Shown here piece after piece: positions 5,935 to 20,603 of a stretch of 64,000 nucleotides of DNA; positions within the stretch are counted from its first letter, which is position 1, and each line of letters opens with the position of its first letter. This DNA is from Ramlibacter algicola. GTDB taxonomy: Bacteria > Pseudomonadota > Gammaproteobacteria > Burkholderiales > Burkholderiaceae_C. The notes beneath the pieces were generated by a model that was given only the letters and a program-made list of their open reading frames with translations, was not told where the DNA came from and did no database searches. A program made the translations under genes and the position numbers. Where the stretch lies: assembly GCF_016641735.1 (NCBI RefSeq), contig NZ_JAEDAO010000001.1, positions 1,674,001 through 1,738,000 of the forward strand, read 5' to 3'.

Positions 5935-5948
5935 TTGACTTACATCAA
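5935..5948 (+). promoter_or_regulatory. FNR/DNR-type box before the NO-reductase operon
   Basis: The sequence TTGACTTACATCAA matches the CRP/FNR-family dyad TTGAT-N4-ATCAA with one change. A TAAT-containing -10-like element lies at about 5971-5978, placing a start point near 5983. That puts the box centre near -41.5, the class II activator position. It precedes DUF2249 and norB, so an FNR, DNR or NNR regulator probably activates the operon under low oxygen and nitrogen oxides. The motif is seen; the regulator is not encoded in this window. Confidence 0.75.
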
Positions 5949-6018
5949 GTCCTGAGCCCGGCCGGGCTCCTCTAATAGGTGCATTCCCCATGCACCTTCA
6001 ACGAGAGAGGAGCCCGCA

Positions 6019-6306
6019 ATGTCCGACACCGTGGCCCGCGTGGACGTGCGCAGCATCGAGCCGCGCCGCCGACACCCGATCATCTTCCTGACGTTCCAGG
6101 ACCTCGCCGAGGGCGAGGCGATGGAGCTGCTCTGCGACCACGACCCGGTGGTCCTGAAATCGCACTTCGAGCTGCTCGCGCCGCAGGAGTCCGAATGGAA
6201 CTACCTCGAGCGCGGCCCGCAGACCTGGCGCGTGGGGATCACGCGCGTGCGTTCCGCCCCGCCCGAGCCCACCTGCTGCGGCGCGTGCGGCGGCGGCGGT
6301 CATTGA
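6019..6306 (+). CDS. DUF2249 domain protein
   Basis: A 95-residue cytoplasmic protein with the DUF2249 core (VRSIEPRRRHPIIFLTFQDL, then LCDHDPVVLKSHFELLAP and WNYLERGPQTWRVGITR). Such proteins recur beside nor and nir genes in denitrifiers, but their role is not established. The C-terminus is notable: after a Pro-rich linker it ends in CCGACGGGGH, three Cys and a final His that could bind a metal. It is the first gene after the FNR/DNR-type box and 20 bases before norB, so it should be co-expressed with NO reductase. Confidence 0.85.
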   Translation: MSDTVARVDVRSIEPRRRHPIIFLTFQDLAEGEAMELLCDHDPVVLKSHFELLAPQESEWNYLERGPQTWRVGITRVRSAPPEPTCCGACGGGGH

Positions 6307-6326
6307 GCACCCACCCGGAGTCCACC

Positions 6327-8603
6327 ATGAAGAACACGCAAACGCTCTGGCGCTGGCTGGGGCTGGTCTTCGTCCTGTCGTTCGGGGCCCTCGGGTACCT
6401 GGGCTGGCAGATCTACGTCTCGGCGCCGCCGATCCCGACGGCCGTCGCCACGGCCCGCGGCGACACGCTGTTCACCGGCGAGCAGGTGCAGCGCGGCCAA
6501 CAGGTCTGGCTGGCCGCCGGCGGCCAGCAGCAAGGCAGCGTCTGGGGCCACGGCGCGTACGTCGCGCCGGACTGGTCCGCCGACTGGCTGCACCGTGAAG
6601 CCCTGGCGCTGCGCACGCTGCGTGCGAAGGCGCTGGTGAGCGACCCGGCCGGCCTGTCGCCGTCGCAGCAGCACGCCGTCGACGGCGCGCTGAAGGACGA
6701 GATGCGCGGCAACACGTACGACGCCGCCACCGGCAAGGTGACGGTGTCGGAACTGCGCGCGCAGGCCATCCGCGAGACCGCGGCGCACTACACCGCGCTG
6801 TTCGGCGACGCCTCCTCCCTCGACAAGCTGCGCGAGCAATACGCGATGCGCAGCGGCGAAGTTCCCGCGGCCCAGGATCGTGACGCACTGGCCGCCTTTT
6901 TCTTCTGGAGTGCCTGGGCCGCGGCGACCGATCGCCCCGACGAGCCCGGCGTCTCGTACACCAGCAACTGGCCGCACGAGCCGCTGGTGGGCAACACGAT
7001 GACGACGTCGTCGGCGATGTGGTCGATGGCCAGCATCATCCTGCTGCTGGCCGGCATCGCCGCCATGCTGTGGCTGCACGGCGCCGGCAAGCACGAAGAA
7101 GAAGCGGTACCGCCCAAGGCCGACCCGCTCCTGGGCTTCCAGGCCACGGCGTCGATGAAGGCCACGCGCAAGTACTTCTTCGCCGTCGCCGGCCTGCTGC
7201 TGCTGCAGATCGGCATGGGCGCGATCACCGCGCACTACGCGGTCGAGGGCAGTTCCTTCTTCGGCTTGCCGATCTCCGACCTGCTGCCCTACGTGACCAG
7301 CCGCACCATCCACACGCAAGTGGGCGTGTTCTGGATCGCCACCGCGTGGCTCGCCACCGGCCTGTACATCGCCCCGATGCTGGGCGGCAAGGAGCCCAGG
7401 CTCCAGAAGCTGGGCACCGACTTCCTGTTCTGGGCGCTGATCGCCATCGTGGTGGGGTCCACCGTGACCGGCTGGCTGGGCACGCTGCAGCACCGCGGCG
7501 TCGACTTCAGCTTCTGGGTCGGCAACCAGGGCCTGGAGTTCACCAGCATGGGCCGCGTGTGGCAGTACCTGCTGTTCGTCGGCCTGCTGCTGTGGGCGGT
7601 GCTGCTGGGCCGTGCGCTGTGGCCTGCGCTGAAGACGCCGTCGGAAAGCCGCGGCCTGATCGCGATGGTGTTCCTGTCGGCCACCTGCATCGGCGGCTTC
7701 TACGCGACCTCGCTCGCCTGGGGCCAGCACACCCACTACTCGATGGTGGAGTACTGGAGGTGGTGGCTGGTGCACCTGTGGGTCGAGGGCTTCTTCGAAG
7801 TGTTCGCCACCGCCGTCATCGCGCTGCTGTTCACCAAGCTGGGCCTGGTGCGCGCCGCGAGCGCCAACCGCGCCATCGTCGCCGAGACCATCGTGTTCCT
7901 GTTCGGCGGCATCCTGGGCACGCTGCACCACCTGTACTGGACCGGCACGCCCACCTCGGTGATCGCCGTCGGTGCCGTGTTCTCCGCGCTGGAGGTGGTG
8001 CCGCTCACGCTGATCGGCCTCGAAGCGCTCCAGACCTGGAGGCGCTCGCAAGGCATGCCCTGGCTCGCCGCCTACAAGTGGCCCGTGCTGTGCTTCGTCG
8101 CGGTGGGCTTCTGGAACACCGTGGGCGCCGGCCTGCTCGGCTTCGCCATCAACCCGCCGGCGTCGCTGTACTACGTGCAGGGCCTGAACATGACCGCGGC
8201 CCACGGCCACGGCGCGCTGTTCGGTGTCTACGGCATGCTGGGCATCGGCCTGATGCTGTTCTGCCTGCGCGGCCTGTACGCGCGCCACCTGCATGCCGAC
8301 CGCCTGCTCAAGCCCGCCTACTGGTGCCTGAACATCGGCCTGGCGCTGATGATCTTCCTGTCGCTGCTGCCCGCCGGCATCTACCAGGCCGCCGCCAGCA
8401 TCAGCAAGGGCATGTGGTACGCCCGCTCGCCCGAGGTCATCCACTCGCCGTTCATGGAGACGATGGTCTGGCTGCGCGTCCCCGGCGACATCGTGTTCGC
8501 GGCCGGTGCGCTGTTCCTGGCCGTCTACGTGATGCGCCTGCTGGGCCGCGGCCGCCGCGAAGCGATCGTGCCGGCGCAAGTCGCCGCCGCGGTGGCCCGC
8601 TAG
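6327..8603 (+). CDS. norB: Quinol-dependent nitric oxide reductase (qNor, single subunit)
   Basis: A 758-residue integral membrane enzyme that reduces two NO to N2O with quinol electrons. The long N-terminal part (TM1, then a ~200-residue periplasmic domain from about residue 30 to 225) is the cytochrome-c-like, heme-free domain that distinguishes qNor from cNor. The remainder has about a dozen TM segments with the heme-copper-oxidase-type His residues, for example in SRTIHTQVGVFW, EGFFEVFATA, GTLHHLYWTG and MTAAHGHGALFGVYG. The absence of norC agrees with the quinol type. Also called norZ. It follows DUF2249 and precedes nsrR. Confidence 0.95.
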   Translation: MKNTQTLWRWLGLVFVLSFGALGYLGWQIYVSAPPIPTAVATARGDTLFTGEQVQRGQQVWLAAGGQQQGSVWGHGAYVAPDWSADWLHREALALRTLRAKALVSDPAGLSPSQQHAVDGALKDEMRGNTYDAATGKVTVSELRAQAIRETAAHYTALFGDASSLDKLREQYAMRSGEVPAAQDRDALAAFFFWSAWAAATDRPDEPGVSYTSNWPHEPLVGNTMTTSSAMWSMASIILLLAGIAAMLWLHGAGKHEEEAVPPKADPLLGFQATASMKATRKYFFAVAGLLLLQIGMGAITAHYAVEGSSFFGLPISDLLPYVTSRTIHTQVGVFWIATAWLATGLYIAPMLGGKEPRLQKLGTDFLFWALIAIVVGSTVTGWLGTLQHRGVDFSFWVGNQGLEFTSMGRVWQYLLFVGLLLWAVLLGRALWPALKTPSESRGLIAMVFLSATCIGGFYATSLAWGQHTHYSMVEYWRWWLVHLWVEGFFEVFATAVIALLFTKLGLVRAASANRAIVAETIVFLFGGILGTLHHLYWTGTPTSVIAVGAVFSALEVVPLTLIGLEALQTWRRSQGMPWLAAYKWPVLCFVAVGFWNTVGAGLLGFAINPPASLYYVQGLNMTAAHGHGALFGVYGMLGIGLMLFCLRGLYARHLHADRLLKPAYWCLNIGLALMIFLSLLPAGIYQAAASISKGMWYARSPEVIHSPFMETMVWLRVPGDIVFAAGALFLAVYVMRLLGRGRREAIVPAQVAAAVAR

Positions 8604-9447: not shown

Positions 9448-10638
9448 ATGCCCGCGCCCGGCCGGATCGCGCGACCTGCAGCCCGCCCGGCACGGCTCGC
9501 CGCTGCGGGGCCGCTGCTCGCGGCTGCTGCCGTGCTGGCCGGCATCGCTGCGTTCGGCGGTGGCCTGCTGCGCGCGGGCGTCCCGTGGCCCGGCACGCCC
9601 GGCACCGCCTGGGCGACCGCGGCCGCGCTGCACGGCGCGCTGGTGATCGGCGGGATGCTGGGCACGGTCATCGGCCTGGAGCGCGCGGTCGCCTTGCGCC
9701 ACCCGCTCGGCTGGACCTCGCCGGTCGCATCGGCCCTGGCGGCCGCCGCGTTGCTGGCCGGCCGTGTCGCCGAAGGCGCGCTGCTGCTCGCGCTGGCATC
9801 GGCCTGCTTCGTCGCGGTCAACGTCGCGTTGATGCGGCGCCAGCCGGCGCCGCACACGCGCCTGCTGGTGCTGGCCGCCGCCGGCTGGCTCGCCGGCAAC
9901 GTGCTGTTCGCGGCCGCCGCGCCGGCCGACGCGATCGTGCCGTGGTGGTTCACCTTCCTCGTCGCCACGATCGCCGCCGAGCGGCTGGAGATGACGCGCC
10001 TGATGCGCCGCCATCCGGCCGCCGAGTGGCGGCTGCACGCGCTGCTCGCGCTGCTCGTGGCCGGCGCGGCCGCGACGTTCTTCTCCCCACGCGCGGGCGG
10101 CGCGGTGTTCGGCGCGGCGCTGCTGCTGCTGGCCGGCTGGTTCCTTCGCCATGACATCGCGCGCCGCACCCTGCACGCGCCGGGGCTGCCCCGCTACATG
10201 GCGGTGTGCCTGCTGGCGGGCTACGGCTGGCTCGGCATCGGCGGCATCGCCTGGATCGCTACCGCCTACGGGGCGCCGGTGCGCGACGCGGCGCTGCATG
10301 CGATCGGGCTCGGTTTCGTCGCCAGCATGGTGCTGGGGCACGCGCCCGTGATCCTTCCGGCCATTGCGGGCTGGAAGCTCGCCTTCGGGCGCGCCTTCTA
10401 TCTGCCGCTGGCGTTGCTGCACCTGACGCTGCTGGCGCGCCTCGCGGGCGGCGCGGTCGACGCCACGTGGCGCGCCGCGGGCGCGGCGGGCAACGCGCTC
10501 GCGCTGCTGGTGTTCATCGCCGTCGTCGCGGGCGCTGTCGCCTGGCGGCGCCGCGCGCTGGTTCACGACCCCCGGGCCGAGGCACGCGCCGGTGCGGCTG
10601 GCGGGCCACGGGATGAAGGAGAGAGGGCAACACGATGA
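9448..10638 (+). CDS. Polytopic membrane protein, possibly distant NnrS relative
   Basis: A 396-residue, very hydrophobic protein with about 11-12 predicted TM segments. I do not recognise it firmly. The stretch AALHAIGLGFVASMVLGHAPVILPA resembles the late NnrS segment with a His at the membrane edge and a GH pair, and ALHGALVIGGMLGTVIGLERAVAL has a similar early His. Hydrophilic residues cluster at loops with RR and DP pairs. It starts 1 base after the DUF59 gene and overlaps the next by 4, so it belongs to the nor operon. A role in NO tolerance or metal handling is possible but not shown. Confidence 0.7.
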   Translation: MPAPGRIARPAARPARLAAAGPLLAAAAVLAGIAAFGGGLLRAGVPWPGTPGTAWATAAALHGALVIGGMLGTVIGLERAVALRHPLGWTSPVASALAAAALLAGRVAEGALLLALASACFVAVNVALMRRQPAPHTRLLVLAAAGWLAGNVLFAAAAPADAIVPWWFTFLVATIAAERLEMTRLMRRHPAAEWRLHALLALLVAGAAATFFSPRAGGAVFGAALLLLAGWFLRHDIARRTLHAPGLPRYMAVCLLAGYGWLGIGGIAWIATAYGAPVRDAALHAIGLGFVASMVLGHAPVILPAIAGWKLAFGRAFYLPLALLHLTLLARLAGGAVDATWRAAGAAGNALALLVFIAVVAGAVAWRRRALVHDPRAEARAGAAGGPRDEGERATR

Positions 10639-11900
10639 CCGATGACGGGATGGCGGCCGCGCAGGCCACCGAGGAAGGCGCCGCGTTCGCCGCGAGCCTG
10701 GCGCAACTGGCGCAGGACAGCGGATTGAAGGCGCTGCAGTGGCGCGGCCGCAGCTTGCTGCCGGTGGTGCAGGGCGGGATGGGCGTGGGCGTGTCCGCCG
10801 GCGGTCTCGCCGGCACGGTGGCCGGGTGCGGCGCGGTCGGCACGATCGCGTCGGTGGACCTGCGCCGCGTGCATCCGGACCTGATGGAGCGCACCGCGGC
10901 GCTGGAAGGCGAGGGCGCCAGGGGCGCGATCAACGCGGCGAACCTGGAAGCGCTGTCGCGCGAGATCCGGCGTGCGCGCGACATCGCGCAGGGCCGCGGC
11001 CTCGTCGCGGTGAACGTGATGCGCGCGGTGGGCGAGTACCCGGCGTCCGTGCGCCAGGCACTGGAGAGCGGCGCCGACGCGCTGGTGGTCGGCGCCGGGC
11101 TGCCGCTGGACCTGCCCGAGCTCGCGGCCGACCATCCGCACGTCGCGCTGGTGCCGATCCTGTCGGACGCCCGCGGCACGCAGCTGGTGCTGCGGCGCTG
11201 GGCCAGGCGCGGCCGCAAGCCCGACGCGATCGTCATCGAGCACCCCGGCCACGCGGGTGGCCACCTTGGCGCGGCGCGCATCGAGGACCTGCACGACCCG
11301 CGCTTCGACTTCGAGGTCGTGCTGCCGCAGGTGCTGGAGGTGCTGCGCGAGATGGGGCTGGAGCGCGACGTACCCGTGATCGCGGCCGGTGGCATCCGCA
11401 GCCGCGACGACATCGCGCGCGTGCAGGCGCTCGGCGCCGCCGCCGCGCAACTCGGGACGCCCTTTGCAGTCACGCGGGAAAGCGATGCGCATCCGCACTT
11501 CAAGCAGGTGCTGGCCGAGGCCCGGCCGGAGGACATCGTCGAGTTCACCAGCGTCGCCGGCCTGCCCGCGCGCGCGGTGCGCACGCCGTGGCTGGACAAG
11601 TACCTGCGCCTCGAGAGCCGCCTGCAGGCGGGCGCGCACGCCAAGCGCCACTGCACGATGTGGTTCGATTGCCTCGCGCAGTGCGGCCTGCGCGACGGCA
11701 AGGCAGACTGGGGCCAGTTCTGCATCGACAAGGTGCTCGGCCACGCGTGGCTGGGGGAAGTGCGCAAGGGCCTGTTCTTCCGCGGCGCCGGCGCGCTACC
11801 CTTCGGCGAGCAGGTCCGCAGCGTCGCCGAGCTGATGCAGTGGCTGCTGGGGGGCATCCGCCCCGCCGCGCCGACCCTGGAGGTGATCCATGCAACGTGA
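10635..11900 (+). CDS. Nitronate monooxygenase-like FMN flavoprotein
   Basis: A 421-residue TIM-barrel flavoprotein of the 2-nitropropane dioxygenase/nitronate monooxygenase group. Seen are VVQGGMGVGVSAGGLAGTVA at the start, VNVM, IVIEHPGHAGGHLG with the catalytic-type His, and the phosphate-binding IAAGGIRSRDDIARVQALGAAAAQLGTPF. Usual family length is 320-380; the extra C-terminal ~100 residues contain a Cys-rich stretch (HCTMWFDCLAQCGLRDGK) of unknown role. Members often sit in denitrification loci, where detoxifying nitronates or nitro compounds has been suggested. It overlaps both neighbours, so it is co-translated. Confidence 0.88.
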   Translation: MTDDGMAAAQATEEGAAFAASLAQLAQDSGLKALQWRGRSLLPVVQGGMGVGVSAGGLAGTVAGCGAVGTIASVDLRRVHPDLMERTAALEGEGARGAINAANLEALSREIRRARDIAQGRGLVAVNVMRAVGEYPASVRQALESGADALVVGAGLPLDLPELAADHPHVALVPILSDARGTQLVLRRWARRGRKPDAIVIEHPGHAGGHLGAARIEDLHDPRFDFEVVLPQVLEVLREMGLERDVPVIAAGGIRSRDDIARVQALGAAAAQLGTPFAVTRESDAHPHFKQVLAEARPEDIVEFTSVAGLPARAVRTPWLDKYLRLESRLQAGAHAKRHCTMWFDCLAQCGLRDGKADWGQFCIDKVLGHAWLGEVRKGLFFRGAGALPFGEQVRSVAELMQWLLGGIRPAAPTLEVIHAT

Positions 11901-14900
11901 CGATCCCGTGCGCGCCGCGGCGCTGCCGCCGCAACCGATCAGCACCGACGTGCTGGCCGAGAAGTACCTCAAGGACGGCGAGCGCGGGCTGGACGACCTG
12001 TACGAGCGCGTCGCGCGGGCGCTGGCCAGCGTGGAGGCCCCGCCGCTGTGTGAGCTGTGGGAGGCGCGCTTCCTGGAGAACCTGCGCCGGGGCGCGATCG
12101 GGGCCGGTCGCATCATGAGCGCCGCCGGCACCGACCTCGAGGCCACGCTGATCAACTGCTTCGTGCAGCCGGTGGGCGACGCGATCCAGGGCCGCGACGA
12201 CCAGGGGCTGCCCGGCATCTACGAGGCGCTGCGCGAAGCGGCGGAGACGATGCGCCGCGGCGGCGGCGTCGGCTACGACTTCTCGGCCATCCGCCCGCGC
12301 GGCGCCATCGTGCGCAAGACGCGCTCGATCGCGTCCGGCCCGTGCGGCTACATCGACGTGTTCGACCGCTCCTGCGCGACGGTCGAGAGCGCGGGCTCGC
12401 GCCGCGGCGCGCAGATGGGCGTGCTGCGCATCGACCACCCGGACGTACGCGAGTTCATCGGCGCCAAGCGCACGCCGGGCCGCTGGTCCAACTTCAACGT
12501 GTCGGTGGGCGTGCCTGGCGAGTTCATGCGTGCGTTGGAAGCGGGCGCGGACTGGCCCTTGGTGCACCGTGCCGAGCCGGGTCGGGATCTCGTCGCCGCC
12601 GGCGCCCACCAGCGCGCCGACGGGATGTGGGTCTACCGCACCGTGCCCGCGTGCGAACTGTGGGACCTGGTGATGCGCTCGGCCTACGACTTCGCCGAGC
12701 CCGGCATCCTGTTCCTGGACACGATCAACACCGACAACAACCTCGCGTACTGCGAGCGGATCACGGCGACGAATCCGTGCGTCACCGCGGACACGTGGGT
12801 GCTCACGACCGAGGGGCCCGCGCAGGTAGCCGACCTCGTCGGCCGCCGCTTCACCGCCGTCGTCGACGGCAAGGCGTTCCCGGTCGACAGCGACGGGTTC
12901 TTCGCCACTGGGCGCAAGCAGGTCGTGCGCCTGCGCACCCGCGAGGGGCATGAGCTGCGGCTCACGCCGGACCACCTGGTGCGCAAGATGGCGCGCCGGA
13001 CGCGCTACGTCACGGAGGTGCAGTGGTCGCCAGCCGGTGACCTGCAGCGGGGCGACGAGATCGTGCTGCACGACCACCGCGCCACGCGCGGCTGGCAGGG
13101 AGCCGGCACCGAGCAGGAGGGCTACCTGCTGGGCCTGTTGATCGGCGACGGGACGCTCAAAAAAGACAAGGCGGTGCTCTCCGTGTGGGCGCCGGAGCTG
13201 CGCGCCGTCGGCGACGAGCACACCGCCCTGGGCGGAAGCGCGGGCATCGTGGCCGCCGCGGAAGCCGCCGCGAGCACCTTGCCGCACCGCGCCGACTTCG
13301 GCGGCTTCCAGCGGCCGGTGGGCGACGGCCGCGGCGAGATGCGCATGGGGTCCGCGGCCTTGCGCGACCTGGCCTTCAGGCTTGGCCTGCGCGTGGGACA
13401 CAAGACAATCACGCCGCACGTCGAGCGCCAGTCCAGCGACTTCACCGTGGGCCTCCTGCGCGGGTTGTTCGATGCCGACGGCTCGGTGCAGGGCAGCCAG
13501 GACAAGGGCGTGAGCGTGCGGCTCACGCAGTCGGACGTCTCGCTGCTCGCGGCCGCGCAGCGCATGCTGCTGCGCCTGGGCATTGCAAGCACGATCTACC
13601 GTGATCGCAAGCCCGCGCTGCGCCAGGTCATGCGCGATGGCAAGGGAGGGCAGGCGCTCTACGACGCGCGGCCCGTGCACGAGCTGGTCATCAGCGGCGC
13701 GAACCTGCTGGAGTTCGAGGAGCGCGTGGGCTTCGCCGACACCGGCAAGCGCGAGCGCCTGGACCATGCGCTGTCGGCGTACCGCCGTGCCCTGAACGTC
13801 GAGCGCTTCACGGCCACCGTCGAGGCGGTCGACGAGGACGGGGAGGAGGACGTCTACGACGTCACGGTGCGCGACGTCCACGCGTTCGACGCCAACGGCC
13901 TGTACGTGCACAACTGCGGTGAACAACCGCTGCCCGCGTACGGCTGCTGCGACCTCGGCCCGGTGATCCTCACGCGCTTCGTGCGCCAGCCGTTCGGGTT
14001 CGGCGGCGAGGCGGCGTTCGACTTCGACGCCTTCCGCGACGCGGTGGCGGTGCAGGTGCGCGCGCTGGACAACGTGCTGGACCTCACGCACTGGCCGCTG
14101 CCGCAGCAGCAGGACGAGGCGCGCGCCAAGCGCCGCATCGGCGTGGGCTTCACCGGGCTGGGCAACGCGTTGGCGATGCTCAAGCTGCGCTACGACGAGG
14201 ACGACGGCCGCGCGATGGCGGTGCGCATCGCGCGCGCCATGCGCGACGCGGCGTATGCGGCGTCGGTCGAGCTGGCCAGGGAGAAGGGGGCGTTCCCGGC
14301 CTTCGACGCCGGCGGCTACCTGCGGCCCGGCACGTTCGCCAGCCGGCTCGACCCGGCGTTGCAGGACGCGATCCGCGCGCACGGCATCCGCAACAGCCAC
14401 CTGCTGTCGGTCGCGCCCACCGGCACCGTGAGCCTGGCGTTCGCCGACAACGCGTCCAACGGCATCGAGCCGCCCTTCTCGTGGACCTACCGGCGCAAGA
14501 AGCGCGAAGCCGACGGCAGCACCAGCGAGTACGAGGTGGTCGACCACGCCTGGCGGCTGTACCGCTCGCTCGCCGGCGAGACCGCCGAACGGCCGCCGTA
14601 TTTCGTCAGCGCGCTGGAGATGCCGGCGGCGGCGCACCTGGCGATGATGGAAGCGGTGCAGCCCTTCGTCGACACGGCGATCAGCAAGACGGTCAACGTG
14701 CCCGAGGACTATCCGTACGACGACTTCAAGGACCTGTACCTGGAAGCATGGCGCGCGGGCCTGAAGGGGCTGGCCACGTACCGGCCCAACACCATCCTCG
14801 GCTCGGTGCTCGACGCCGGCCCCGCACAGGCGGCCGTCGCGCCGCTGCTGGAGACGCCCGCGCCGGACCCGATGCGCGCGGTCATCGAGCGCCGCCCGCG

Positions 14901-15432
14901 CGGCACCTTGCCCGCGGTGGCCGAGAAGGTCGAGTACTGGACGCAGCAGGGCCGCCAGACCCTGTACCTCGTGGTGTCCTTCCTGCCGGTGGGCGAGGGC
15001 CGCGAGCGCGCGATCGAGTTCTTCATGCCGGTGGGCCAGCAGGGCGAGTCGCAGCAGTGGATCTCCGCCTGCATGCGGCTGCTGTCGCTGGCCGCGCGCG
15101 GCGGCTTCCTCGACCGCGCGCTGGACGACATGCGCAAGGTCGCGTGGGACCGCGGGCCGGTGCGGCTGGGCACGTACCAGCGCGCGGACGGCGCCGAGGT
15201 GCCGCTGTGGCACGACTCCGAGGTGGCGGCGATCGCGTATGCCATCCAGGCGCTGATCGCGCGCCGCCGCGGCGACGCCGCGCCGACACTCACCACGCCG
15301 GCGCCCGCCGTCGGCGTCGCCGGCACCGCGATGGCCGGCACCAAGTGCCCCGAGTGCGGCGCGCATGCTGTCATCCGGAAGGACGGGTGCGAGTTCTGCA
15401 CCCAGTGCGGCCATGTGGGAGCTTGTGGCTGA
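11890..15432 (+). CDS. nrdJ: Class II (B12-dependent) ribonucleotide reductase containing an intein
   Basis: A 1180-residue precursor; removing the intein (residues 297-675) leaves 801 residues, a normal NrdJ length. It converts ribonucleotides to deoxyribonucleotides using adenosylcobalamin and works without oxygen. Visible are LINCFVQ with redox Cys90, RRGGGVGYDFS, the split NP/CGEQ active site (Cys676), CCDLG with Cys687, SVAPTGTVSLAF, and a C-terminal zinc-ribbon (CPECG...CEFCTQCG) from 1153. Cys90, Cys676 and Cys687 correspond to the redox pair and thiyl-radical Cys of Thermotoga NrdJ. A strong Shine-Dalgarno, GGAGGTGAT, precedes the ATG inside the upstream gene. Confidence 0.95.
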   Translation: MQRDDPVRAAALPPQPISTDVLAEKYLKDGERGLDDLYERVARALASVEAPPLCELWEARFLENLRRGAIGAGRIMSAAGTDLEATLINCFVQPVGDAIQGRDDQGLPGIYEALREAAETMRRGGGVGYDFSAIRPRGAIVRKTRSIASGPCGYIDVFDRSCATVESAGSRRGAQMGVLRIDHPDVREFIGAKRTPGRWSNFNVSVGVPGEFMRALEAGADWPLVHRAEPGRDLVAAGAHQRADGMWVYRTVPACELWDLVMRSAYDFAEPGILFLDTINTDNNLAYCERITATNPCVTADTWVLTTEGPAQVADLVGRRFTAVVDGKAFPVDSDGFFATGRKQVVRLRTREGHELRLTPDHLVRKMARRTRYVTEVQWSPAGDLQRGDEIVLHDHRATRGWQGAGTEQEGYLLGLLIGDGTLKKDKAVLSVWAPELRAVGDEHTALGGSAGIVAAAEAAASTLPHRADFGGFQRPVGDGRGEMRMGSAALRDLAFRLGLRVGHKTITPHVERQSSDFTVGLLRGLFDADGSVQGSQDKGVSVRLTQSDVSLLAAAQRMLLRLGIASTIYRDRKPALRQVMRDGKGGQALYDARPVHELVISGANLLEFEERVGFADTGKRERLDHALSAYRRALNVERFTATVEAVDEDGEEDVYDVTVRDVHAFDANGLYVHNCGEQPLPAYGCCDLGPVILTRFVRQPFGFGGEAAFDFDAFRDAVAVQVRALDNVLDLTHWPLPQQQDEARAKRRIGVGFTGLGNALAMLKLRYDEDDGRAMAVRIARAMRDAAYAASVELAREKGAFPAFDAGGYLRPGTFASRLDPALQDAIRAHGIRNSHLLSVAPTGTVSLAFADNASNGIEPPFSWTYRRKKREADGSTSEYEVVDHAWRLYRSLAGETAERPPYFVSALEMPAAAHLAMMEAVQPFVDTAISKTVNVPEDYPYDDFKDLYLEAWRAGLKGLATYRPNTILGSVLDAGPAQAAVAPLLETPAPDPMRAVIERRPRGTLPAVAEKVEYWTQQGRQTLYLVVSFLPVGEGRERAIEFFMPVGQQGESQQWISACMRLLSLAARGGFLDRALDDMRKVAWDRGPVRLGTYQRADGAEVPLWHDSEVAAIAYAIQALIARRRGDAAPTLTTPAPAVGVAGTAMAGTKCPECGAHAVIRKDGCEFCTQCGHVGACG
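12778..13914 (+). mobile_element. Intein with LAGLIDADG homing endonuclease, inside nrdJ
   Basis: A 379-residue in-frame insertion between Pro296 and Cys676 of the class II reductase. It has all splice signals: Cys1 at the start (CVTADTWVLTTEGP, block A), block B with T and H in RLTPDHLV (about residues 355-364), block F (DVYDVTVRDVHAFDANG), and terminal His-Asn followed by the +1 Cys. Two LAGLIDADG motifs are present: LLGLLIGDG at about 413-421 and LLRGLFDADG at about 522-531, each keeping the acidic residue. It therefore looks able to splice and to home. GC content is like the host gene, suggesting long residence or a GC-rich donor. Confidence 0.95.
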
Positions 15433-16651
15433 TCCTGCCGCTTCGCCGCTAAGCCCTGCGCGCTGGCAGCTGCAGTCGCTGCTCGCGCAGCCGTGGCGGC
15501 TCGGCTTCGCCGCCGGCGCCACGCTGCTGGCGCTGGCGGGCGCGTGGTGGATCGCCGTGCTCGTGCCGGGTGCCGTGCCGCGCTGGGCCGTGCCGCGGCC
15601 GCTCGCGCACGGGGCGGTGATGGCGCTGGGGCCGTTCCCGCTGTTCATCGGCGGCTTCGCCTTCACCGCGCTGCCGCGCTGGCTGCGCGTGCCGGCCCCG
15701 CCGACGGCGTCGCTGTTGCCGGCCTTCGGCGCGCAGGCGATCGGCTGGTGCGTGTGGCTCGCAGGCACCCTGGTCGCTCCTGCGTTCGCCGCCGTGGGCG
15801 CTGCAATCGCCGCGGCGGGGCTGGCCGATCTCGCGCGGCGCGCCGTGCGGCAGGTGCGCGCGAGCGACAAGCCCGACCGCCTGCACCCGGCGCTCATCGC
15901 CGCTGCGCTCGCCGCCGGCGCGGTTGCGACCGCGGTGCTGGCTGCGGCCACCGCGCTGCAACGCTGGGACGTCGCCGGCGCCGCCGTTCTCACCGGTTTC
16001 TGGGGCTGCGTGGCGGCGGTGTTCACCGTCGCGGCCGACCGCCTCGTCCCCGCGTTCGACCTGCCCGGCGCCTCGCGCCGTGCGCATGCACTGCTCGCCG
16101 TGGTGCTGGCGGCGGTGGTGCTGCGGGCGATCGCACCGTGGATGGGCGAGCACGTGGCGTGGCTGGGACTGCTCGCGGCGGTGCAGGGCGCCGCGGGGCT
16201 CGCCATCGCCGCCGGCGCGTTCGCCTGGCAACGCGCGCGGCACCTGCGCACGCCGCTCGTGCGCGCGCTGTTCCTGGGCAGCTGCTGGTTCGCTGCCGGC
16301 TGGCTGCTCGGCGCGTTCAACGCGGCATCGCGCGCGGCGGGCCATGCGGCCCCGCTGCCGCTGGCCGACGTGCATGCGCTGGGCGCCGGCGCCTTCAGCC
16401 TGCTGCTGGCAGGCATGGCGTCGCAAGTCGTGGCCGCGCACACGGCGCGCCCGCTCGTGCTCGGCGCCCGCCCGGCCTGGCTGTTCGCTGCGGTACAGGG
16501 CGCCGTGCTGCTGCGCATCGCCGCGGCGGCGTTCGCCCTCCCGTTCCTCCTGCTGCCCGCCGCCGTGCTGTGGAGCGCCTCGCTCGGCGCCTGGGCCTTC
16601 CGCATCGTCCACGAAGCGGCGCTCGCCACGACGGCGCGCGCGCGGCATTGA
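15413..16651 (+). CDS. nnrS: NnrS family membrane protein
   Basis: A 412-residue protein with about 12 TM segments. NnrS hallmarks are a His early in a TM (LAHGAVMALGPFPLFIGGFAFTALPRWL) and a late DVHALGAGAFSLLLAGMAS, then AAHTARPL, corresponding to the GHTGRPL motif. NnrS is a heme- and copper-containing membrane protein of denitrifiers that lessens nitrosative stress. The ATG at 15413 overlaps nrdJ by 20 bases; a GTG at 15425 with GGGAG before it is an alternative. This copy is more divergent than the next gene, in keeping with two paralogues. Confidence 0.82.
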   Translation: MWELVADPAASPLSPARWQLQSLLAQPWRLGFAAGATLLALAGAWWIAVLVPGAVPRWAVPRPLAHGAVMALGPFPLFIGGFAFTALPRWLRVPAPPTASLLPAFGAQAIGWCVWLAGTLVAPAFAAVGAAIAAAGLADLARRAVRQVRASDKPDRLHPALIAAALAAGAVATAVLAAATALQRWDVAGAAVLTGFWGCVAAVFTVAADRLVPAFDLPGASRRAHALLAVVLAAVVLRAIAPWMGEHVAWLGLLAAVQGAAGLAIAAGAFAWQRARHLRTPLVRALFLGSCWFAAGWLLGAFNAASRAAGHAAPLPLADVHALGAGAFSLLLAGMASQVVAAHTARPLVLGARPAWLFAAVQGAVLLRIAAAAFALPFLLLPAAVLWSASLGAWAFRIVHEAALATTARARH

Positions 16652-18223: not shown

Positions 18224-18237
18224 TTGATTTAGGTCAA
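18224..18237 (+). promoter_or_regulatory. FNR/DNR-type box before nirK
   Basis: TTGATTTAGGTCAA matches TTGAT-N4-ATCAA with one mismatch in the second half. The nirK start codon is 70 bases downstream, leaving room for a start point near 18272 if the box sits at -41.5. It would let the same regulator control nitrite reductase and, through the box at 5935, NO reductase. Confidence 0.75.
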
Positions 18238-18307
18238 GGCTGCCCGGCAGTCGCGAGCCTAAGGTCCATGGCAGATGCTGCTTTGCTATCGACCTGAGGA
18301 AACCAAG

Positions 18308-19804
18308 ATGACGACCCTGACCCTCCCCCGGCTGTTGCGCGCCTCGCGCCTGCTGGTGCTGGCCGCCGCGATCGGCGGGCCGCTGCTGTCGGTTGCCGCG
18401 CCTGCGGCGCCGGCCGACGCAGGCACGCCGCGCGGCAAGCCGATCGAGGCGATCCTCACCAGCCCGCCGCACGTGCCGCCGCCGACCAACCGGAACTACC
18501 CGGCGAAGGTGATCGTGAACCTGGAGGTCGTCGAGAAGACGATGCAGATCTCCGAGGGCGTGAACTACACGTTCTGGACTTTCGGCGGCACGGTGCCCGG
18601 CAGCTTCATCCGCGTGCGCCAGGGCGACACGGTGGAGTTCCACCTGAAGAACCACCCGGGCAGCAAGATGCCGCACAACATCGACCTGCACGGCGTCACC
18701 GGGCCGGGCGGTGGCGCGGCTTCCAGCTTCACCGCGCCGGGCCACGAGTCGCAGTTCACCTTCAAGGCGCTCAACGAAGGCATCTACGTCTACCACTGCG
18801 CCACGGCGCCGGTGGGCATGCACGTGGCCAACGGCATGTACGGCCTGATCCTGGTGGAGCCGCCGCAAGGGCTGCCCAAGGTGGACAAGGAGTACTACGT
18901 GATGCAGGGCGACTTCTACACGACGGGCAAGTACCGCGAGAAGGGCCACCAGCCGTTCGACATGGAGAAGGCCATCGACGAGAAGCCGACCTACGTGCTG
19001 TTCAACGGCGCCGAGGGCGCGCTCACCGGCGACAAGGCCATCACCGCCAACGTCGGCGAGAAGGTGCGCCTGTACATCGGCAACGGGGGCCCGAACCTGA
19101 TCTCGAGCTTCCACGTGATCGGCGCGATCTTCGACCAGGTGCGGTTCGAGGGCGGCAGCAACGTGCAGAAGAACGTGCAGACCACGGTCATCCCCGCGGG
19201 CGGCGCGGCCATCGCGACCTTCACGGCGCGCGTGCCGGGCAGCTACGTGATGGTGGATCACTCGCTGTTCCGCGCGTTCAACAAGGGCGCGCTCGCCATC
19301 CTTCGCATCGATGGCGCCGAGAACAAGGCGATCTACTCGGGCAAGGAAGTCGATGCGGTGTACCTCGGCGATCGCGCGCAGCCCAACCTGGCCGCGGTGA
19401 CGCAGGCCGCGCAGGGCGCCGCCGCCGGCAAGCTGACCAAGGACGAGCAGATCAAGGCCGGCCAGCAGCTGTTCGCCGGCACCTGCTCGGTGTGCCACCA
19501 GTCGGACGGCAAGGGCATGGCCGGCGTGTTCCCGCCGCTGGCCAAGTCCGACTTCCTCGGCGCGGGAGCCGCGAAGGCCATCGACGTGGTGCTCCGCGGC
19601 CTGTCGGGCAAGGTCACCGTGAACGGCACCGACTACAACTCGGTGATGCCGCCGATGAACCAGCTCAACGACGACGAGGTGGCCAACATCCTGACCTACG
19701 TCTTCAACAGCTGGGGCAACCCCGGCCACGTGGTCTCCAAGGACGACGTGAAGAAGGCCCGCGCCGCGGCGCCCGCCGCCCAGGGCCAGGCCGAGCACAA
19801 GTGA
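18308..19804 (+). CDS. nirK: Copper nitrite reductase with C-terminal cytochrome c domain
   Basis: A 498-residue periplasmic enzyme reducing nitrite to NO. A signal peptide (about 1-33) leads into two cupredoxin domains. Type 1 copper ligands are H123, C164, H172 and M177; type 2 ligands are H128, H163 and H318; catalytic Asp126 and His269 are present. After a linker, residues 375-475 form a class I cytochrome c domain with CSVCH (393-397) and a Met ligand in VMPPMNQL. The fusion provides its own electron entry. An FNR/DNR-type box lies upstream, and nirV and a SCO protein follow. Confidence 0.96.
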
Positions 19805-19823: not shown

Positions 19824-20603
19824 ATGAAGCCGCTCGCCGCCGTCGTCCTCGCCGCCGCCTGCGCGGTGGTGCAAGCCGGCGAGTACCGCCTGGTACCCGG
19901 CGGCCGTTTCGAGAGCGTGCTGCCGCAAGGCCCGGTGGCCACCGTGTCGGCGCCGGTGGACGTCGCGCCGTTCGCGATGCGCACCACGCCGGTCACGGTC
20001 GGCGAGTTCTCCTCCTTCGTGCAGGCGCATCCCGAGTGGATGCGCGGGCAGGCGCCCTCGGTCTTCGTGGACCGCCGCTACCTGCTGCAGTGGGCCACGC
20101 CTGCGGCGGCCGGTCCCGCGCTCGAGCGCGGCGTGCCCGTCACCGAAGTCAGCTGGTTCGCCGCGCGCGCGTTCTGCGAGAGCGAAGGCGCGCGGCTGCC
20201 GACCTGGATCGAGTGGGAGTACGCCGCCGCCGCCGACGCCACGCGCACCGACGCGCGTGCCGACCCCGCGTGGCGCCGCGCCATCCTGTCCTGGTACGAG
20301 AAGCCCGGCGGCACCGCGCTCGCGGCTGTCGGCGGGGCACCCAACGCCTACGGCCTGCGCGACCTGCACGGCCTGGTGTGGGAGTGGGTGGACGACTTCA
20401 ACGCGCTGTTCATCGCCGGCGACAGCCGCACCCAGGGCGACCCCGACAAGCTCAAGTTCTGCGGTGCCGGCGCGCTGAACATCATCGATCGCGACAGCTA
20501 TGCGGTGCTCATGCGCATCGCGCTGCTGTCGTCCCTCAACGCCGCCGACACGACGGCGACCCTGGGCTTCCGCTGCGTGAAGCCCGTGCAAGGAACCCCA
20601 TGA
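19824..20603 (+). CDS. nirV: NirV-like formylglycine-generating-enzyme-fold protein
   Basis: A 259-residue exported protein: a signal peptide of about 19 residues, then the FGE-sulfatase (SUMF1/EgtB-type) fold with PGGRFESV, FAMRTTPVTVGEFSSFVQ, ARLPTWIEWEYAAA, GLRDLHGLVWEWVDD and LGFRCVK. This domain beside nirK is the NirV pattern. NirV's exact role is unsettled; it is thought to assist NirK activity or assembly. It starts 19 bases after nirK and overlaps the SCO gene by 4 bases. Confidence 0.9.
   Translation: MKPLAAVVLAAACAVVQAGEYRLVPGGRFESVLPQGPVATVSAPVDVAPFAMRTTPVTVGEFSSFVQAHPEWMRGQAPSVFVDRRYLLQWATPAAAGPALERGVPVTEVSWFAARAFCESEGARLPTWIEWEYAAAADATRTDARADPAWRRAILSWYEKPGGTALAAVGGAPNAYGLRDLHGLVWEWVDDFNALFIAGDSRTQGDPDKLKFCGAGALNIIDRDSYAVLMRIALLSSLNAADTTATLGFRCVKPVQGTP

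Follow-up and report, generated by a model that had tools for sequence, protein, structure and literature searches.

The stretch of DNA analysed here, hereafter called the window (64,000 nt of Ramlibacter algicola), carries on its plus strand a gene for a class II ribonucleotide reductase (NrdJ) that is interrupted by an intein (Table 1). The host protein matches the NrdJ_Z model TIGR02504 with 531 bits against a cut-off of 400, and the intein is recognized by Pfam Intein_splicing (E 6.9e-12, above the cut-off), Pfam LAGLIDADG_3 (8e-25) and NCBIfam intein_Nterm and intein_Cterm, both above their cut-offs. Together with the reading of the ORF, these matches confirm the exact insertion site given in a first-pass annotation of the window. 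In a profile search, the solved DnaB, GyrA and RecA inteins also matched over short stretches. Class 1 inteins are marked by Cys, Ser or Thr at position 1, a TxxH in block B, a terminal His-Asn pair, and Cys, Ser or Thr at position +1. The corresponding residues in the window intein are C1, TPDH at 63-66 (the block B TxxH), H378-N379 and C+1, and Cys1 is its only cysteine. Two LAGLIDADG motifs with their acidic residues are present (LLGLLIGDG and GLFDADG), and D124 of the first motif is invariant across 80 aligned family inteins. Its anatomy is that of a class 1 intein of full length that carries a LAGLIDADG homing endonuclease; judged by its family, it is predicted to be capable of both splicing and cleavage.

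Table 1. Features of the nrdJ locus and its surroundings (positions in the window).
Feature	Position	Strand	Comment
norB, quinol-type nitric oxide reductase (qNorB)	5979..8603	+	true start probably later
Rrf2 regulator		+	upstream of nrdJ, with qNorB; family match
Nitronate monooxygenase (NMO) family gene	10635..11900	+	overlaps nrdJ start; recurrent upstream neighbour
NrdJ precursor ORF	11890-15432	+	1180 aa, class II ribonucleotide reductase
N-extein of NrdJ	11890..12777	+	C-terminal end ...ITATNP
Intein	12778..13914	+	aa 297-675, 379 aa, CVTADTWV...FDANGLYVHN
First LAGLIDADG motif	13120..13155	+	GYLLGLLIGDGT
Second LAGLIDADG motif	13453..13485	+	LLRGLFDADGS
C-extein of NrdJ	13915..15429	+	first residues CGEQPLPAYGCC
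Cys+1 (aa 676)	13915..13917	+	predicted splicing nucleophile; equivalent of T. maritima NrdJ Cys322
NnrS-family gene	15365..16651	+	frame overlaps nrdJ end, true start probably later; recurrent downstream neighbour
nirK, copper nitrite reductase with C-terminal cytochrome c	18275..19804	+	downstream of nrdJ

When the C-extein was searched against the sequences of solved structures, its residue 1 aligned with residue 322 and its residue 12 with Cys333 of Thermotoga maritima NrdJ (1XJE). Cys322 is the residue that we take to be the thiyl-radical cysteine, and the proposal that Cys676 is both the +1 residue and the catalytic cysteine thus agrees with the alignment. After translation the intein would excise itself by means of Cys1, Asn379 and Cys+1, and splicing would rejoin NP to CGEQ and place the catalytic cysteine in a continuous active site. 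From the position of the intein it is reasonable to expect that the precursor is inactive until spliced. The GC3 of the intein (0.94) is close to that of the host (0.95-0.96), and such a base composition argues against recent arrival from a low-GC donor.

The denitrification setting proposed earlier for nrdJ was recovered: genes for qNorB, an Rrf2 regulator, two Pfam NnrS proteins and NirK all lie around it on the plus strand, in what is a putative operon. The Rrf2 regulator scores under both the NsrR and the RirA cut-off, and its name is therefore not settled. FNR-like boxes with one mismatch each precede norB (at 5935) and nirK (at 18224); when up to two mismatches are allowed, 10 such boxes occur in the whole window against 3.8 expected. 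Positions 9448-10638, which separate the Rrf2 region from the NMO gene, encode a hydrophobic-looking protein, possibly an NnrS relative, which had no match in Pfam or NCBIfam at E 0.001. Immediately after nirK lies a gene for an FGE-sulfatase-domain protein (19824-20603), possibly a nirK accessory protein.

Elsewhere in the same genome, adjoining genes encode a large subunit of NrdA type and a small one of NrdB type, while a search of the genome for NrdD gave no match. NrdJ was thus the one oxygen-independent reductase detected; it probably serves anaerobic growth and is not the sole reductase of the cell, and splicing of the intein probably matters under anaerobic conditions. In Pseudomonas aeruginosa, the available text of PMC4860495 describes anaerobic nrdJ induction as requiring Anr and Dnr, so a link between nrdJ and NO at the level of expression is already known.

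Species genomes yielded 564 relatives when scanned, and the 80 with the best scores were kept. All of these 80 have the junction NP↓C(G/A)E (the arrow marks the insertion point) and a terminal Asn, and they come mostly from Burkholderiales (Acidovorax, Polaromonas, Hydrogenophaga, Delftia, Rhodoferax). Viral contigs hold 31 further relatives, 25 of them at NP↓C and three at NPC↓S, with the remaining three otherwise placed or truncated. At viral-contig loci L228, L234 and L237 the intein lies one residue downstream, with an NPC↓S junction as in the NrdJ-1 split intein. Two plasmid records matched the window intein, both with identity below 60%.

The site corresponds to the rir1-b allele, an assignment that rests on a match of strain names and not on accessions or on the site drawing of PMC4071816 itself. 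In the part of that 2014 survey available to us, rir1-b is recorded from 55 bacteria, 15 halobacteria and 5 other Euryarchaeota, and Acidovorax sp. CF316 and NO-1 are tabulated as carriers (PMC4071816). Our loci from these two strains (L129 and L151, respectively) have the same host enzyme family and the same NP↓C junction as the window, and their inteins, although from other species, are 66-71% identical to the window intein. The NrdJ-1 split intein likewise splits the NPC motif, yet one residue later, with native exteins given as NPC and SEI and Ser at +1 (PMC13123727, available portion). The BnrdE intein of phage SPbeta lies directly before the Cys that aligns with residue 382 of 6cgl and residue 388 of 1pem, a placement like that in the window, but it differs in its class Ib host, NL↓C junction and GN end, and its identity is about 26% over residues 1-309. 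We take 6cgl and 1pem to be the class Ib NrdE proteins of B. subtilis and Salmonella, and these residues to be their catalytic cysteines. The NrdB intein of Aquifex aeolicus is also of LAGLIDADG type and at a reductase catalytic centre, but it sits in the small subunit, between di-iron ligands, as stated in the accessible part of PMC8772380. According to the excerpts consulted, the curated inteins in one reductase database numbered about 80 by 2009 (PMC2795772), and active sites as frequent intein locations are standard knowledge (PMC5784728, PMC5874633). Since inteins before the catalytic cysteine occur in Burkholderiales, viral contigs and SPbeta, such placement is neither new nor rare, and the window intein adds one more example to the already known rir1-b type.

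To follow carriage among relatives, we used a family sample of 250 genomes, 157 of which match the C-extein. The short-form NrdJ set comprises the window and 62 other loci drawn from the matches listed, with the best match alone kept for a genome with two, nine more divergent or truncated matches left out, and several stretches shortened by contig ends. An intein lies exactly at the site in 11 of these 63 loci and the NPC motif is uninterrupted in the other 52. Intein-free alleles, which the first-pass annotation had suggested looking for in close relatives, were found in both congeneric genomes that the sample included. Among further long-form loci (L098-L126) the intein is present in 18 of 29; as these were chosen mostly for their long frames, the proportion is not a frequency. 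None of the 29 family inteins has an internal stop. Their last residue is Asn in 25 (His-Asn in 23) and Gln in four (L048, L098, L111 and L116); the latter are 25-31% identical to the window intein and branch as a fully supported clade of their own. Two distinct intein lineages thus occupy the same NP↓C site. A pattern search for both endonuclease motifs failed to find them in L098 (276 aa), L113 (277 aa) and L116 (252 aa), as is expected in a homing cycle. The 277-aa intein of L113 belongs to the lineage of the window intein, ends in AKN and has a very long branch.

A tree was built from the exteins of 92 genes by a quick search that gave a long-branch warning for L097. On it, a fewest-change count requires at least 18 changes in carriage, gain and loss being indistinguishable, and 11 of these are forced by well-supported branches. 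The exteins of L115 and L119 are nearly identical and yet differ in intein carriage, and the sister exteins L098/L100 and L111/L113 hold inteins of different lineages. It had been argued that the host gene cannot escape the intein because splicing needs the same cysteine as catalysis. Mutation of the cysteine is indeed closed to the host, but entire alleles come and go with precision, as the intein-free majority of short-form loci and the number of carriage changes indicate. The better reading is of a site kept stable as a target by its conserved cysteine, at which the intein is often lost exactly and regained. A co-conversion tract was also considered: in the window, four A/T-ending codons fall within 16 codons round the site, a number reached in 11 of 530 sliding windows. 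This candidate was rejected because empty alleles share the tendency to A/T-ending codons and the difference between carriers and non-carriers was not significant (P 0.07 for 29 and 63 loci; P 0.25 for 11 and 52).

We consider the window intein to be a parasitic homing element that has a LAGLIDADG endonuclease and occupies the rir1-b position in a class II reductase, with a probability of roughly nine in ten. Its persistence would follow from the conservation of the site, from the need for exact removal if the enzyme is to work, and from the ability of the endonuclease to copy the element into empty alleles; splicing, endonuclease activity and the lack of a host function are expected here from what is typical of the family. 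An intein that benefits its host, for example through folding or cofactor loading, has been proposed for Aquifex NrdB, where protein from the intein-bearing construct had higher iron occupancy and activity (PMC8772380, available part). For the window intein such a benefit seems very improbable, given its absence from 52 of the 63 short-form loci. Moreover, class II reductases are not known to have a di-iron site. Still harder to credit is an intein that has stopped splicing and left a dead gene: Cys1, TxxH, His378, Asn379 and Cys+1 are all in place, the host frame is intact, and the extein parts are about 77-80% identical to their closest homologues among the matches listed. As an intein at a catalytic cysteine for which congeneric empty alleles and two lineages at one site are documented, the window intein is useful for studies of intein turnover.

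The first-pass annotation had further proposed that NO or oxygen could modify the Cys1 or Cys+1 thiols and so control the dNTP supply. In the form considered here, oxidation or nitrosation of either residue would block splicing while the cell denitrifies. If true, this would link NO to dNTP supply. The idea draws on the NO-related genes that surround nrdJ, on the one-mismatch FNR-like boxes before norB and nirK, on NrdJ being the only oxygen-independent reductase found in a genome with no NrdD match, and on the SufB intein being called a sensor (PMC5874633, in the text available). Redox sensitivity as such does apply to some Cys-dependent inteins, as the accessible part of PMC6195587 indicates, but nothing specific to the window intein points to it. 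The mycobacterial DnaBi1 and SufB inteins, both redox sensors, would share Cys-dependent splicing with it; their stress response has been measured. In the same partial source, redox-responsive inteins were established by experiment, and DnaBi1 is a class 3 intein with a second cysteine (PMC6195587), as opposed to Cys1 alone in the window intein. An archaeal polymerase intein is reported, in the excerpt of PMC5874633, to have a disulfide of the Cys1-Cys+1 kind. In the window intein such a bond is chemically possible, as in any intein with both residues. Among the open-access papers listed, judged by title and the opening of the abstract, none dealt with control of a reductase intein by redox state or NO.

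Were the intein retained for sensing NO or oxygen, one would expect carriers to be denitrifiers or to have nrdJ beside such genes. Near nrdJ, however, norB or nirK occurred in one of the 11 carriers, the window itself, and in none of the 52 non-carriers; counting the Rrf2 gene as well, the window stands alone among the 63 loci, in a comparison that drew on sequence no longer than about 20 kb per locus, in some cases shortened by a contig end, and on homologues of window proteins only, so that other gene types are missed. Genome-wide, NirK or cytochrome d1 (NirS-type) was found in 5 of 11 carriers vs. 28 of 52 non-carriers (P 0.74) and qNorB in 1 of 11 vs. 17 of 52 (P 0.16); with small numbers and related genomes, these values exclude a strong association only. 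One of nine comparisons leaned towards gating, NnrS-like genes adjoining nrdJ in 6 of 11 carriers vs. 13 of 52 non-carriers, and it was not significant (P 0.07). A partner cysteine was sought among the invariant, nearly invariant and majority columns of the 80 family inteins, and Cys1 was the only conserved one, with extra cysteines scattered. Cys at position -9 was rejected as a redox partner because it is frequent whether or not the intein is present (9 of 11 carriers, 33 of 52 non-carriers). Furthermore, a gate shut by NO would stop a reductase that denitrifying cells probably need.

With neither a link between carriage and denitrification genes nor a conserved second cysteine, the comparisons give no reason to expect gating, and we regard the proposal as unsupported and improbable. 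A species-specific form of it appears to us equally unlikely: nrdJ would have become part of an operon that responds to NO, and the inherited Cys1/Cys+1 chemistry would let NO or oxygen affect the maturation of NrdJ, as a post-translational gate on anaerobic dNTP supply.

The gene order NMO-nrdJ-nnrS (10635-16651 in the window) recurs with or without the intein among loci L036-L097. An NMO homologue lies directly upstream of nrdJ in 13 of the 62 non-window loci and an NnrS homologue directly downstream of it in 18, each on the strand of nrdJ. This recurring order suggests that the class II reductase and NnrS are functionally linked.
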